From contig JAIRXU010000016.1 of the NCBI GenBank assembly GCA_031268095.1, forward strand, positions 1-60,098: DNA of 60,098 bases, given 5' to 3'. Position 1 is the stretch's first letter; every line of letters begins with the position of its first letter. This document shows, piece by piece, positions 12,661-57,745 of the stretch. The position numbers and the translations under genes are program-made. The notes beneath the pieces were generated by a model. The model was given only the letters and a program-made list of their open reading frames with translations, was not told the origin of the DNA and searched no databases. This stretch comes from Oscillospiraceae bacterium. GTDB taxonomy: Bacteria > Bacillota > Clostridia > Oscillospirales > Acutalibacteraceae.

Positions 12661-14154
12661 ATGGATCAGGAATATCCGTTCCGCGCGCGGGGGCGCCATG
12701 GCTTTGACCGCGACGACGTCATCAACTATATTGCCCAGGCTCAGGCCAGCTGCAACGAGCACCTTGCCCGGCTGGCGGAATTGGAAACCGCCAAACAGGC
12801 CTGGCAGGCCCAGGCGAAAACCCTCGAGCGTGAGCTGGGGGTTTTGAAGTCCCGCAACCAGGAGCTGGAACAGCAGCTCAACCAGGAGCGCATGACCGGC
12901 GCCGCCCAGCGGCAGGAGCTGGAATGGGCCCTGGCCGATAAAGACGGCGGCGCGCCCGGCGGTTCTGCCGGTCCCGCGGAGGCCGACGAACTGCGCGCGA
13001 AGGTCGCGGCGCTGGAAGAGCAGCTTTCCTCCCTGAAAGAAGCGAAACTCACCGAGCCCGCCCGCCCGGCGCTCTCTTTGGTGCCGGAAAACGGCGACAG
13101 CGCCCGGACCCAGGAACTCCATGCCCAAATCCTCCAGCTGACGGACCGGGTCAACCAGACCGCCGCCGAATTGGAAGCGCAGGTGCAGTCCGCCCGCGAA
13201 TGGAAGGCCCGCGCGGAATCCTTCGCCGAGGAAAAGGCCGCGGCCGAGGAACACGCCCGTCATTTGGACGATGAACTGCTGGAGCAGACCGGCGCGGCCT
13301 ACAGCGCCAAAGATAAAATCACCGCCTTGGAATTGGCCGCCCAAAAAGAAAAGGATGTGCTGACGGAGCGGATCACCGCCCTTGAGGCGGAAGCAAGCCG
13401 CCAAGCCGATTCTTTCTCGCGGCAAGCTGCCCATGCCGAAGCCTTGGAGCTGGAGAAAATCGCCCTGACCGAGCACATCGCTTCCCTTCAGGAAACCATT
13501 GCCGGGCTGGAGGGCATCACCGCCGGACTCGAAGAAACCATCGCTGCCCTCAAGGCGAAACGCGCCGAGGACGAGACCGAGCAGGACGCCAAAACCTCCC
13601 GTCTGGAATTCGCGCTGGAAGACGCCCATCAGGCCAAAGAAGCCTTGGACGCGGAAATCGTCCTGCTGCGCAGCCGGATCGAGGACCTGGAAGCCCAGCT
13701 GGCCAGCGAAAAAGGCAACGATACGCTGCGTTCCATGATGCTCGCGTCTTTCAATTACTCCAACCTTTATGTGGAAAATAACCTCAAGACCGCCCAGGTC
13801 ATTTCCGACGCGACGACGAAAAACATCGGCCGGGCCAGCGAGTCCGCCGCTGTCCTGCTGGAGCAGGTGGAAACCATCGTCCGCGCCTTCAATGACAATG
13901 TCAATCAGATCCGTTCCGGCCTTTCCTCTTTCCAGCGGGAGCTGATGTCCATGCAGAGCGGGATGAGCCAGCGCCTGTCGAAAGACAAATTCTCCGCGCT
14001 GCTGGAGGAGAACGAGCGCCTGCGGGAAGAACTGGAGCACGAGCTGCTGGCCGAACTGAACGAGGACTCCGCCGCGGACCCGATATTGCCCAGCCCGGAC
14101 GCGCCCCTGCCCTTCGCGGAGCCCCAGCGCGATTACCGCGATTACCTCAACTGA
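12661..14154 (+). CDS. DivIVA-domain coiled-coil protein
   Basis: 497 residues from ATG 12661 (GAAAGGA about 12 bases upstream); the frame is open further up but the DivIVA start motif begins here. The N-terminus YPFRARGRHGFDRDDVINYI resembles the DivIVA/GpsB lipid-binding domain, in which a short hydrophobic loop is followed by FdxxdVdxfl. Most of the rest is heptad coiled coil (residues 40-370), then VENNLKTAQVISDAT, which is reminiscent of the DivIVA tail helices, and an acidic end. DivIVA proteins collect at curved membrane and recruit division or sporulation factors. It is much longer than DivIVA (about 160-220 residues). Confidence 0.65.
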   Translation: MDQEYPFRARGRHGFDRDDVINYIAQAQASCNEHLARLAELETAKQAWQAQAKTLERELGVLKSRNQELEQQLNQERMTGAAQRQELEWALADKDGGAPGGSAGPAEADELRAKVAALEEQLSSLKEAKLTEPARPALSLVPENGDSARTQELHAQILQLTDRVNQTAAELEAQVQSAREWKARAESFAEEKAAAEEHARHLDDELLEQTGAAYSAKDKITALELAAQKEKDVLTERITALEAEASRQADSFSRQAAHAEALELEKIALTEHIASLQETIAGLEGITAGLEETIAALKAKRAEDETEQDAKTSRLEFALEDAHQAKEALDAEIVLLRSRIEDLEAQLASEKGNDTLRSMMLASFNYSNLYVENNLKTAQVISDATTKNIGRASESAAVLLEQVETIVRAFNDNVNQIRSGLSSFQRELMSMQSGMSQRLSKDKFSALLEENERLREELEHELLAELNEDSAADPILPSPDAPLPFAEPQRDYRDYLN

Positions 14155-14173
14155 CCCGCTGGCCCCTCTGCCT

Positions 14174-14222
14174 TCCCCGCACAACCCACAACCCGCCGCC
14201 CGGATCCTCCTCCGGTCGGCGG
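14174..14222 (+). repeat. 49-bp direct repeat, left copy
   Basis: Identical to 14573-14621 except for one base (T at 14216, C at 14615). Each copy contains the same terminator stem and a shared CCCCGCACAACCCACAAC lead-in. The two copies bracket the toxin-antitoxin-like module. Confidence 0.9.
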
Positions 14223-14229
14223 TTTTTTT
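14193..14229 (+). terminator. Terminator of the DivIVA-like gene
   Basis: Stem CCGCCGcCCGG / CCGGtCGGCGG with loop ATCCTCCT, followed by seven T residues. Confidence 0.85.
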
Positions 14230-14241
14230 CAAAAAAAACAC

Positions 14242-14271
14242 TTGACATAACCAATGCGTTCGGTTTATAAT
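14242..14271 (+). promoter_or_regulatory. Promoter of the antisense RNA
   Basis: TTGACA at 14242-14247 and TATAAT at 14266-14271 with an 18-bp spacer: both boxes are consensus. No gene in this direction follows before the terminator at 14340-14375, so the product should be an RNA of about 100 bases. Confidence 0.8.
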
Positions 14272-14277
14272 AAGCAA

Positions 14278-14382
14278 GAGGGGAATAGCGCCGCGCGACA
14301 GACGGCCTCCCTACCCCTCGTTCAAAATGAATTACGGAAGTAACCGCCCAGCTTGTCACGGCTCGGGGCGGTTACTTCTTAC
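14278..14382 (+). ncRNA. Candidate antisense antitoxin RNA
   Basis: Predicted transcript from the promoter at 14242-14271 to the terminator ending at 14375. It begins with GAGGGG (14278-14283), which can pair with CCCCTC (14314-14319) to form a 5' stem-loop, and ends in a 9-bp terminator stem. It covers the stop codon and 3' untranslated part of the convergent 26-codon ORF, so the two RNAs would be complementary over their 3' ends, as in TxpA/RatA of Bacillus subtilis. No ORF with a binding site is seen within it. Inferred from sequence only. Confidence 0.6.
14340..14375. terminator. Shared convergent terminator
   Basis: GTAACCGCC (14340-14348) and GGCGGTTAC (14367-14375) form a 9-bp stem with an 18-base loop. 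On both strands it is followed by T-rich but interrupted sequence. It would end both the peptide mRNA and the antisense RNA. Confidence 0.7.
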
Positions 14383-14452
14383 TGCCCTTGACTGTCATGA
14401 GGTACCCGGTGGCAATCACAAGGAAAGCCAATAAGTAGAGCCCAAAATCCAA
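14372..14452 (-). CDS. 26-residue hydrophobic peptide, candidate type I toxin
   Basis: A TTG start at 14452-14450 lies 8 bases after a perfect GGAGG. The peptide starts MDFGLYLLAFLVIATGY, continues LMTV and ends KGSKK. It is therefore one transmembrane helix of about 20 residues with a basic tail, the usual form of small membrane toxins such as Fst, TxpA or BsrG. An in-frame GTG at 14461 would add three residues (VKR) but overlaps the binding site. It has its own promoter and leader, a masked binding site and a convergent antisense RNA. The family was not recognised; toxicity is inference. Confidence 0.65.
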   Translation of the reverse strand: MDFGLYLLAFLVIATGYLMTVKGSKK

Positions 14453-14460
14453 TCTTTTCA

Positions 14461-14474
14461 CCTCCTTTCGGAGG
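14461..14474 (-). promoter_or_regulatory. Hairpin masking the peptide's Shine-Dalgarno site
   Basis: On the minus strand CCTCC-GAAA-GGAGG forms a 5-bp stem with a GNRA tetraloop, hiding the GGAGG that lies 8 bases before the TTG start. This would hold translation low unless the hairpin opens, a control common to type I toxin mRNAs. Confidence 0.65.
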
Positions 14475-14514
14475 GAAGGGGAGCAACCGCCGCTGCCGCG
14501 CAAGCGCCACGAAC

Positions 14515-14543
14515 AGTATAGCGCAATTCGTCAAATATTGCAA
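14515..14543 (-). promoter_or_regulatory. Promoter of the hydrophobic peptide mRNA
   Basis: Reading the minus strand, TTGCAA (14543-14538), a 17-bp spacer and TATACT (14520-14515). The predicted start near 14508 gives a leader of about 55 bases. Confidence 0.7.
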
Positions 14544-14572
14544 GCGGAATTTCGATTTTCTTATGAATTGTC

Positions 14573-14621
14573 TCCCCGCACAACCCACAACCCGCCGCCC
14601 GGATCCTCCTCCGGCCGGCGG
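14573..14621 (+). repeat. 49-bp direct repeat, right copy
   Basis: Second copy of 14174-14222 with a single mismatch, starting 399 bp downstream of the first. Confidence 0.9.
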
Positions 14622-14628
14622 GTTTTCT
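14591..14628. terminator. Duplicated terminator between the peptide module and rhaB
   Basis: Stem CCGCCGcCCGG / CCGGcCGGCGG, extended by one G-C pair, then GGTTTTCTTTT on the plus strand. On the minus strand it lies 84 bases beyond the rhaB stop and could end that transcript, although the T-run there is poor. Confidence 0.7.
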
Positions 14629-14711
14629 TTTGCTTTCTTCCGTCAGGCCAGGAACCGTGTGCCCGGTGAATCGCGGGGCAAACCGTGTTCCCCGCCTGCG
14701 GCGCGCTTCCC

Positions 14712-16193
14712 TTACCCTACCTTCCTCAGAAATTCCCCGTACCCTTCCTGCCATGCCGCTTCGTCCCGGGGCAGGTATTCCCGGACGGGGAAGGACCGCG
14801 CGATCAGTTCCCGCGCCTCGGCCAGCCCCGTCAGCTCCCCCTGGGCCATCAGCTGCACCGCCAGATTCCCCAGCACCGTCGCTTCCGCCGGCCCGGCCAG
14901 CACCGGAATCCCGCAGGCGTTGGCCGTCATCTGGCAAAGCAGCGTGTCCTTTACCCCGCCGCCGATGACGTGCAGGCGCGCGTAGCGCTTGCCGGTGCAG
15001 TCCTGGAGCCTTTCCAGCGTCCGGCGGTACTGCATCGCCAGAGACTCGTAAATGCAGCGGACCGTCTCGCCGACGGTTTCCGGCGGACGCTGGCCGCCGC
15101 GCCGGCAGACGTCCCGGATCCGGGCGGGAATGTCCCCCGGCGCGCCGAAAGCGGGGTCGTCCGGATCGAGGAACCGCCGGAACGCCGGCGCGTCCAGCGC
15201 CAGGCGCTCCAAGTCCGCGTACGAGTAGCTCTCCCCCGCGCGGGCCCAGGCCCGCCGGCTTTCCTGGATCAGCCAGAGCCCCGTGATATTCTTGAGGAAC
15301 CGGGTCTTTCCCAGCCCTCCTTCGTTGGTGATGTTGTATTTATATGCCTTGTCGTCCGCAATCGGCCTCTCCAGCTCCGTGCCCAGCAGCGACCAGGTTC
15401 CGGAACTCAGAAACGCAAATTCGGACCCCGCTTCCCCGCTCGGCACGGCGCAGACAGCGGACTGTGTGTCGTGCCCGCAGACGGAAATCACCGGCACCGG
15501 ACTCAGCCCCGTTTCCTCCTGGCTTTCCGGCAGCAGCGGCCCCAGCGGCGTCCCCGCCGGGACGATCTCCCCCACCAGCCGCCTTGGCAGCCCGAGCGTC
15601 TCGAACACCCGTTCCGACCACACTGGCCCCGCGCCGTCCTCGACCCGCAGCAGCTGGGAGGTCCGGGCAATCGATTCTTCCGTCGTCCGCTCCCCCGTGA
15701 GGAAATACCCCAGCAAATCCGGCAGGAACAGCAGCCGCTCCGCGCGCTCCAGCAGCGCGGGCCGCTGCCTGGCCAGGGCGAAGAGCTGGAACACCGTGTT
15801 GCCGGTCATGAACTGGAGCCCCGTCTCCCGGTAGAACGCCGGCAGCGGAAAGATCTCCCCCGCCGCTTCAATGCTCCCCGCCGTCCGGGCGTCCCGGTAG
15901 TGGACCGGGTTTTCCAGCAACCGTCCGTCCGCGCCCAGCAGCCCGAAGTCCACCCCCCAGGTGTCAATCCCGATGGAGCGGATCCCGGCCGCACCGGCGG
16001 TCCGGCGGCGCAGCCCCTGCCGGATTTCGTGCAGCAGGCGCAGGATGTCCCAGTAGAGCGTCCCGCCCAGCCCGACGGGTTCGTTGGGGAAGCGGTGCAG
16101 TTCCTCCAGGGCGAGCTTGCCGCCGTCGTAGCAGCCGAGCATGACCCGTCCGCCGGACGCGCCAAGGTCAACCGCGCAGGAGAGGGTAGGCAT
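14712..16193 (-). CDS. rhaB: Rhamnulokinase (FGGY-family carbohydrate kinase)
   Basis: 493 residues from ATG 16193, with GAAAGGA 7-8 bases upstream; a longer reading to 16235 lacks a site. Rhamnulokinase phosphorylates L-rhamnulose with ATP. Visible motifs are the N-terminal phosphate loop CAVDLGASGGRVMLG, SIGIDTWGVDFGLL with the catalytic Asp, PVISVCGHDTQSAV, FLSSGTWSLLG, and the C-terminal HVIGGGVKDTLLCQMTANA. The spread of these motifs fits RhaB better than xylulokinase or glycerol kinase. No other rhamnose gene is adjacent, so the exact sugar is inferred from family resemblance only. Confidence 0.85.
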   Translation of the reverse strand: MPTLSCAVDLGASGGRVMLGCYDGGKLALEELHRFPNEPVGLGGTLYWDILRLLHEIRQGLRRRTAGAAGIRSIGIDTWGVDFGLLGADGRLLENPVHYRDARTAGSIEAAGEIFPLPAFYRETGLQFMTGNTVFQLFALARQRPALLERAERLLFLPDLLGYFLTGERTTEESIARTSQLLRVEDGAGPVWSERVFETLGLPRRLVGEIVPAGTPLGPLLPESQEETGLSPVPVISVCGHDTQSAVCAVPSGEAGSEFAFLSSGTWSLLGTELERPIADDKAYKYNITNEGGLGKTRFLKNITGLWLIQESRRAWARAGESYSYADLERLALDAPAFRRFLDPDDPAFGAPGDIPARIRDVCRRGGQRPPETVGETVRCIYESLAMQYRRTLERLQDCTGKRYARLHVIGGGVKDTLLCQMTANACGIPVLAGPAEATVLGNLAVQLMAQGELTGLAEARELIARSFPVREYLPRDEAAWQEGYGEFLRKVG

Positions 16194-43390: not shown

Positions 43391-43508
43391 GGTCATATGG
43401 CACATGGGTCCTGTGCGGCGGAACGCCGTGAACCATGTCAGGCGGGGAACCGAGCAGCATTCAGCGGGCAGTCCCGCGCGCCACAGTCCGCCTGTGTGCC
43501 ATATGACC
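43391..43508 (+). ncRNA. ffs: Signal recognition particle RNA, short form
   Basis: GGTCATATGGCACA at the 5' end pairs with TGTGCCATATGACC at the 3' end, closing a rod of about 118 bases. The apical domain shows TGTCAGGCGGGGAAC-CGAGCAGCA, where TCAGG..., GGAA-type loop and GAGCAG are the Ffh-binding features. It lies just upstream of dnaX, the usual place for this gene in Firmicutes. No Alu domain is apparent. No T-run follows directly, so it may be processed from a transcript that continues into dnaX. Confidence 0.85.
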
Positions 43509-57668: not shown

Positions 57669-57745
57669 CCGCCTGTGGCGAAGCTGGATATCGCAGCAGA
57701 TTCCGATTCTGAAGGCCGGGGGTTCGAATCCCTCCAGGCGGGCCA
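57669..57745 (+). tRNA. tRNA-Arg (anticodon CCG)
   Basis: All arms pair: acceptor CCGCCTG / CAGGCGG, D stem GCGA / TCGC, anticodon stem around loop TTCCGAT (anticodon CCG, reading CGG), T stem GGGGG / CCCTC with loop TTCGAAT. The discriminator is G and CCA is encoded. 77 bases. Its 3' side borders genes of mobile-element type. Confidence 0.93.

Follow-up and report, generated by a model that had tools for sequence, protein, structure and literature searches.

What is encoded by a region of about 300 bases that sets two convergent promoters, a short hydrophobic reading frame and a palindrome into the space between two longer genes? The region lies in a 60,098-nucleotide stretch of an Oscillospiraceae genome (contig JAIRXU010000016.1; this whole stretch is called the window), and the initial annotation read it as a type I toxin-antitoxin-like module in which an antisense RNA silences the mRNA of a small membrane peptide. 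From sequence comparison, we favour a type I toxin-antitoxin module on the chromosome, compact in build and with its own peptide family, and we put the probability of this reading at roughly 0.7. What is new in it would most likely be the peptide family, within an otherwise known kind of type I system.

The individual pieces named in the annotation are all present (Table 1): the 26-codon minus-strand frame with its TTG start, the promoter upstream of it, the masked ribosome site and, on the opposite strand, a promoter with the full consensus. Such promoters are scarce by chance, as positions 13600–15200 hold two of them against 0.3 +/- 0.6 in shuffled sequence. The putative plus-strand RNA, in which a 5′ hairpin (GAGGGG...CCCCTC) would precede the shared hairpin, folds better than all of 200 shuffles (z -3.36), and the putative minus-strand RNA reaches z -2.42, with 6 of 200 shuffles folding equally well.

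Table 1. Features of the module and its immediate flanks, in window coordinates.
Feature	Position	Strand	Remark
Left copy of 54-bp direct repeat	14174..14227	+	copies 96% identical
Promoter of antisense (antitoxin) RNA, TTGACA-18-TATAAT	14242..14271	+	consensus 12/12
Putative antisense RNA, ~105 nt	14278..14382	+	predicted from promoter and hairpin
Putative toxin mRNA	14330..14508	-	predicted from promoter and hairpin; folded
Palindromic hairpin common to both RNAs, 13-bp stem	14337..14378		contains the stop codon of the ORF
Toxin-like ORF, 26 codons	14372..14452	-	TTG start; one hydrophobic stretch; C-terminal GSKK
Hairpin CCTCC-GAAA-GGAGG enclosing the Shine-Dalgarno (SD) site	14461..14474	-	read from sequence
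Leader element GGCGGTTGCTCC	14480..14491	-	imitates 3′ arm of hairpin, complementary to its 5′ arm
Toxin promoter TTGCAA-17-TATACT	14515..14543	-	consensus 9/12
Right copy of 54-bp direct repeat	14573..14626	+	

A hairpin does lie where the two putative transcripts converge, as the annotation had it, but the 9-bp stem that it placed at 14340–14375 is in fact one of 13 bp, in which 14337–14349 pairs with 14366–14378 and which overlaps the end of the coding sequence. The stop codon of the ORF (14374–14372) falls within the stem, the last two lysine codons (14380–14375) overlap its base, and these two codons, AAG AAG, are the complement of CTTCTT, the end of the putative plus-strand RNA. The stem was absent from the output of a simple terminator scan because its loop of 16 bases is too long for a scan limited to loops of 3–8 and because it has a weak T tail on either strand (plus, CTTCTTACTG; minus, CTTCCGTAATT). 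Across 17 distinct copies, standard pairs occupy 92.8% of the cells of the alignment, a value reached by 0 of 500 shuffles, and four pairs are changed on both sides, a count that 35 of 500 shuffles also reach. Termination of both putative transcripts at this hairpin is likely. No Rfam family matches inside the module at its gathering score; the best match below threshold, ohsC (26.2 bits against 50), we treat as chance.

The ORF translates from its TTG to LDFGLYLLAFLVIATGYLMTVKGSKK*, and this peptide exceeds no Pfam or NCBIfam cut-off, which supports the earlier suspicion that it would represent a family of its own, possibly a new one. Its relatives are conserved small hydrophobic peptides of 26–30 residues and of the single-helix type. 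In nine copies of the window's type (window included), pS/pN is 0.574/0.124, and two other groups of copies give 0.326/0.040 (n = 5) and 0.159/0.060 (n = 4). The synonymous excess of the window's group is lost in four of the five other frames and mirrored in one reverse frame, as is expected where wobble positions coincide; in the group of four, one shifted and two reverse frames likewise have pS > pN, so that this group is weak evidence on its own. The pooled value for 18 copies (0.588/0.390) was set aside, as it mixes peptides of different length. By these rates the peptide family is under purifying selection, and the pattern named in advance as contrary evidence, conserved flanks around a peptide frame that is not conserved, was not seen: per site, synonymous changes outnumber amino-acid changes.

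Further copies of the module occur within the genus, where 6 of 14 genomes hold 23 matches to the peptide profile, a single one in the window's own genome and up to nine in another; the other eight genomes, some of them incomplete, have none, which makes the module dispensable. When features were checked at their exact places, the stop codon lay within a hairpin at 21 of the 23 matches. An antisense promoter of at least 9/12 was present at 21 (0.061 of shuffled windows) and one of at least 11/12 at 20 (0.000 of 1150 shuffled windows), while a toxin promoter of at least 9/12 was found at 20 (0.069 of shuffled windows). All three features coincide at 20 of 23 matches, so that the co-conservation of peptide, hairpin and antisense promoter proposed as a check holds up within the genus, and on these counts chance does not account for the module. 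Of the exceptions, one is a copy whose toxin promoter scores 8/12 and two are loci (L174 and L175) in which the matched frame has a stop directly after its first codon; either translation starts elsewhere there or the copy is broken, and with a looser script all three features turn up next to the downstream portion of both frames. The 18 copies first collected align across the whole module, with both promoters and the hairpin present, and their putative antisense RNAs measure 100–113 nt. Two further loci (L017 and L013) keep the antisense promoter and the hairpin with no intact peptide frame, as expected if the toxin is lost first. Another locus (L011) carries tandem modules that differ from each other in peptide subtype, two copies about 344 bp apart, and in 3 of the 18 copies (L004, L012 and L030) an additional sequence of about 40 bases separates the leader element from the SD region.

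Which known system does the module resemble? The annotation assigned its geometry to txpA/ratA and related small membrane toxins, and the layout does fit the 3′-end overlap of the txpA/ratA pair, with RNA ends that in the window are predicted; the par system of plasmid pAD1, however, is equally close, as it has a shared bidirectional terminator. In PMC7472228, par is described with convergent promoters, that terminator, a short antisense RNA, a small peptide and a sequestered SD, and the module is like it in its convergent promoters, single shared hairpin, putative short antisense RNA, small peptide and folded SD. It differs from par in that its stop codon lies inside the hairpin and in that complementary direct-repeat pairing between the leader and the 5′ part of the antisense RNA is missing; no Fst-like family appears among the Pfam and NCBIfam matches, a statement about library matches. 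For txpA/ratA, an RNA overlap of about 75 nt and a peptide of 59 aa are given in PMC4147584, where sprG1/SprF1 is named as a homologue, and a 3′-end duplex with RNase III decay is described for the pair in PMC6562991 and PMC4147584. The module shares a hydrophobic peptide with a basic tail with txpA/RatA and Hol_Tox (PF16935), whereas its predicted overlap is about 45–50 nt and its peptide has 26 aa, both smaller than the txpA/ratA values. The window's family has no match to PF16935, and Hol_Tox itself exceeds its cut-off in 0 of 60 relatives, with one match below it; loci of Alicyclobacillus have the same hairpin stem as the window with other loops, and the single peptide scanned from them is Hol_Tox. 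Convergent modules of Clostridioides difficile are a third likeness: CD2517.1-RCd8 is described in PMC6563280 as convergent overlapping genes encoding a hydrophobic peptide with a Lys-rich end, and it resembles the window's module in belonging to the Clostridia, in layout and in peptide type, a comparison made by description only. The word 'terminator' is absent from the main text of that paper. Because the Hol_Tox profile is unmatched and the second contact of par fails, we file the module under neither par nor txpA/RatA. Neither a stop codon in a shared terminator nor the window's peptide is described in the passages of PMC7472228, PMC6563280, PMC6562991, PMC4147584 and PMC9045289 considered here, a scope outside which most of the subscription literature lies.

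The module would most likely use complementary hairpins, one at the 3′ end of each of its two RNAs, much as par/Fst-RNA II or TxpA/RatA do. The toxin mRNA would run leftward from about 14508 and would be poorly translated, since its SD is folded and its start is TTG; in all 18 putative mRNAs that were folded, the SD has a pairing probability of 0.80–1.00. The plus-strand RNA of about 105 nt, made from the better promoter, would present the complementary hairpin loop, and the two loops would kiss and then open into a duplex of about 45–50 bp over the last codons and stop of the mRNA. This duplex would be cut by RNase III, translation would be blocked, or both. When the antisense supply falls, the peptide would be made and would insert into the membrane.

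The leader element may add a second brake near the ribosome site by pairing with the 5′ arm of the hairpin, either that of the mRNA or that of the antisense RNA; since the stem is palindromic, the antisense RNA bears the same arm and could hold the leader instead. The predicted duplex of leader and 5′ arm has -18.3 kcal/mol in the window and a mean of -19.1 over 18 loci, against -11.1 kcal/mol (mean sd 2.1) in shuffles. Of 18 copies, just two, one of them the window's (P 0.66), fold best with the mRNA closed on itself, 5′ to 3′, and such closure was rejected as a general resting state. Imitation of the arm by the leader appears to be mainly a feature of the window's family, as it has a z below -2 at 8 of 10 loci of that family and, elsewhere, at 3 of 14 loci with an antisense promoter and 1 of 8 without one. 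A par-like second pairing (DRa/DRb), suggested by CGAGGGG/CCCCTCG near both 5′ ends, was also rejected: leader and antisense 5′ part give -32.4 kcal/mol for cognate partners and -37.6 for shuffles, with no cognate preference (permutation p = 0.53).

We also observe that the two RNAs of a locus, toxin mRNA and antisense, start similarly, and in the same sense (for example GGCGCTGCGC, GGTGTCGCRC, GGTGCTACGC), at 14488–14508 (minus) and 14284–14299 (plus) in the window and at the same places in 17 relatives. Within a subfamily, the 5′ elements of a single locus resemble each other more closely than those of different loci do (permutation p = 0.0008, a value that relatedness inside subfamilies may inflate), and for the window's element the cognate partner ranks only third of 18. 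Such a near self-complementary element may act as a contact site or a protein site, or it may be what remains of an inverted duplication.

The genomic setting of the module allows other explanations of it. On one side lies the 3′ end of a long coiled-coil gene (527 aa; no family in Pfam, weak SMC-type matches only) and on the other that of an FGGY-type sugar kinase gene that is nearest to rhamnulokinase (450.8 bits, cut-off 528). A direct repeat of 54 bp, terminator-like by eye, brackets the module, and the 31-base core of this repeat occurs twice in the genome (up to three mismatches), both times here. This repeat may mark an insertion or allow excision. In one relative the module separates two genes that are about 400 bases from each other, one rhaB-like and one with L-fucose isomerase domains, and in another a rhaB-like gene is closely followed by a like (fucI-like) frame with no peptide between; the presence of the module beside these neighbours is thus variable (L130, L133). 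The bracketing repeat with its locally confined core, this presence and absence beside rhaB-like genes and the dispersed, multicopy state would all suit a small selfish element that is propagated whole, with the peptide-RNA pair preventing its loss and the module a passenger useless to the cell. Against it, neither phage records nor viral contigs yielded a match (0 in the phage records; in the viral contigs, 0 by hairpin pattern and 0 by peptide), and the plasmid search returned three matches, all weak and haloarchaeal. We think a selfish element possible but on balance unlikely, and it is compatible with a type I module and not exclusive of it.

The same sugar-kinase neighbourhood could instead point to a small membrane protein that is no toxin, one that modulates a membrane process and whose level is tuned by the antisense RNA. 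Purifying selection would look identical for such a protein, and the module does adjoin a rhamnulokinase-like gene here and stands between rhaB-like and fucI-like genes in the relative above. The count of one to nine profile matches in the genomes that have any, the lack of a match in 8 of 14 genus genomes, the tandem pair and the antisense-side loci without an intact peptide nevertheless fit an addiction-type module better, and we consider this alternative improbable. The type I toxin-antitoxin reading accordingly remains the one that we prefer.

How far does such a module reach beyond the genus? A DNA search found matches in 9 of 60 genomes, own included, all of the genus and some by the hairpin alone. 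In the order, the peptide profile matched 5 of 295 genomes, again with the own genome: two matches in other families encode MEYYFLLVL(I/V)LIVATGYI(T/L)SIKK*, with a 9-bp inverted repeat that by eye includes the stop codon, though the 60-base piece folds better in another way, and the remaining two, in long frames, look like chance. Among 299 genomes across the phylum, only the own genome was matched. The hairpin reaches further than the peptide, since 46 stretches from named genomes have the exact 12+12 pattern; the titles of many read Oscillospiraceae or Clostridia, and others are from Alicyclobacillus, Ornithinibacillus, Neobacillus, Lactiplantibacillus, a Lachnospiraceae MAG and two Bacteroidota-type records.

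A 10+10 pattern within those 46 stretches gives 49 distinct hairpins, 32 of which have an SD-preceded hydrophobic ORF ending at the TAA of the stem (shuffle rate 0.002; at least one of the 32, at L074, is an apparently spurious frame). A promoter from the opposite side at 60–130 bases accompanies 24 of these 32 loci (rate 0.000 in 640 shuffles), and one from the same side as the peptide accompanies none. Either K or R stands next to last in 30 of the 32 peptides; the final K is imposed by the pattern itself. The 17 of 49 hairpins without such a peptide might speak for a dispersed repeat, palindrome or terminator, in which the open frame is accidental; the 32 that have one, the frame-specific synonymous excess and the promoters on both sides contradict this reading, and it is very improbable.

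Ten of the hairpin peptides were scanned, and those of Alicyclobacillus (51.9 bits) and Ornithinibacillus (24.0 bits) pass the Hol_Tox cut-off of 23.3. The remaining eight, which include two from the window's family, pass no cut-off. Conversely, a phylum search gave more than 30 Hol_Tox matches, and of 30 loci taken from them the frame could be placed, by a loose motif, in 24; in 19 of these 24 genes the stop codon falls within a predicted hairpin, on its 5′ arm. Across the loci compared, then, a stop codon inside the hairpin is a common habit of these genes, and the window carries another peptide family on it. As the arrangement recurs with unrelated peptides, Hol_Tox included, it looks like a chassis for different peptides. 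We offer tentatively, at somewhat less than even odds, the broader proposal that one chassis, a hairpin of convergent RNAs with built-in toxin stop and lysine codons, bears unrelated membrane peptides across the Bacillota; the antisense terminator would then account for part of the basic tail, as a by-product, and a hairpin search could bring up new toxin families. Two other loci (L071 at about 7513 and L087 at about 3123) have the same hairpin stem with longer hydrophobic frames unlike the window's family.

Genes as short as these are usually missed by gene callers, and the window's family lies below the cut-offs of both libraries. The hairpin with its built-in stop is a sequence handle that picked up several peptide families at once and could help to list hidden type I modules in uncultured Clostridia, and it offers an explanation for the Lys-rich ends of these peptides. 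Elsewhere in the window, positions 43402–43500 encode a bacterial small SRP RNA and 57669–57742 a tRNA, both ordinary.
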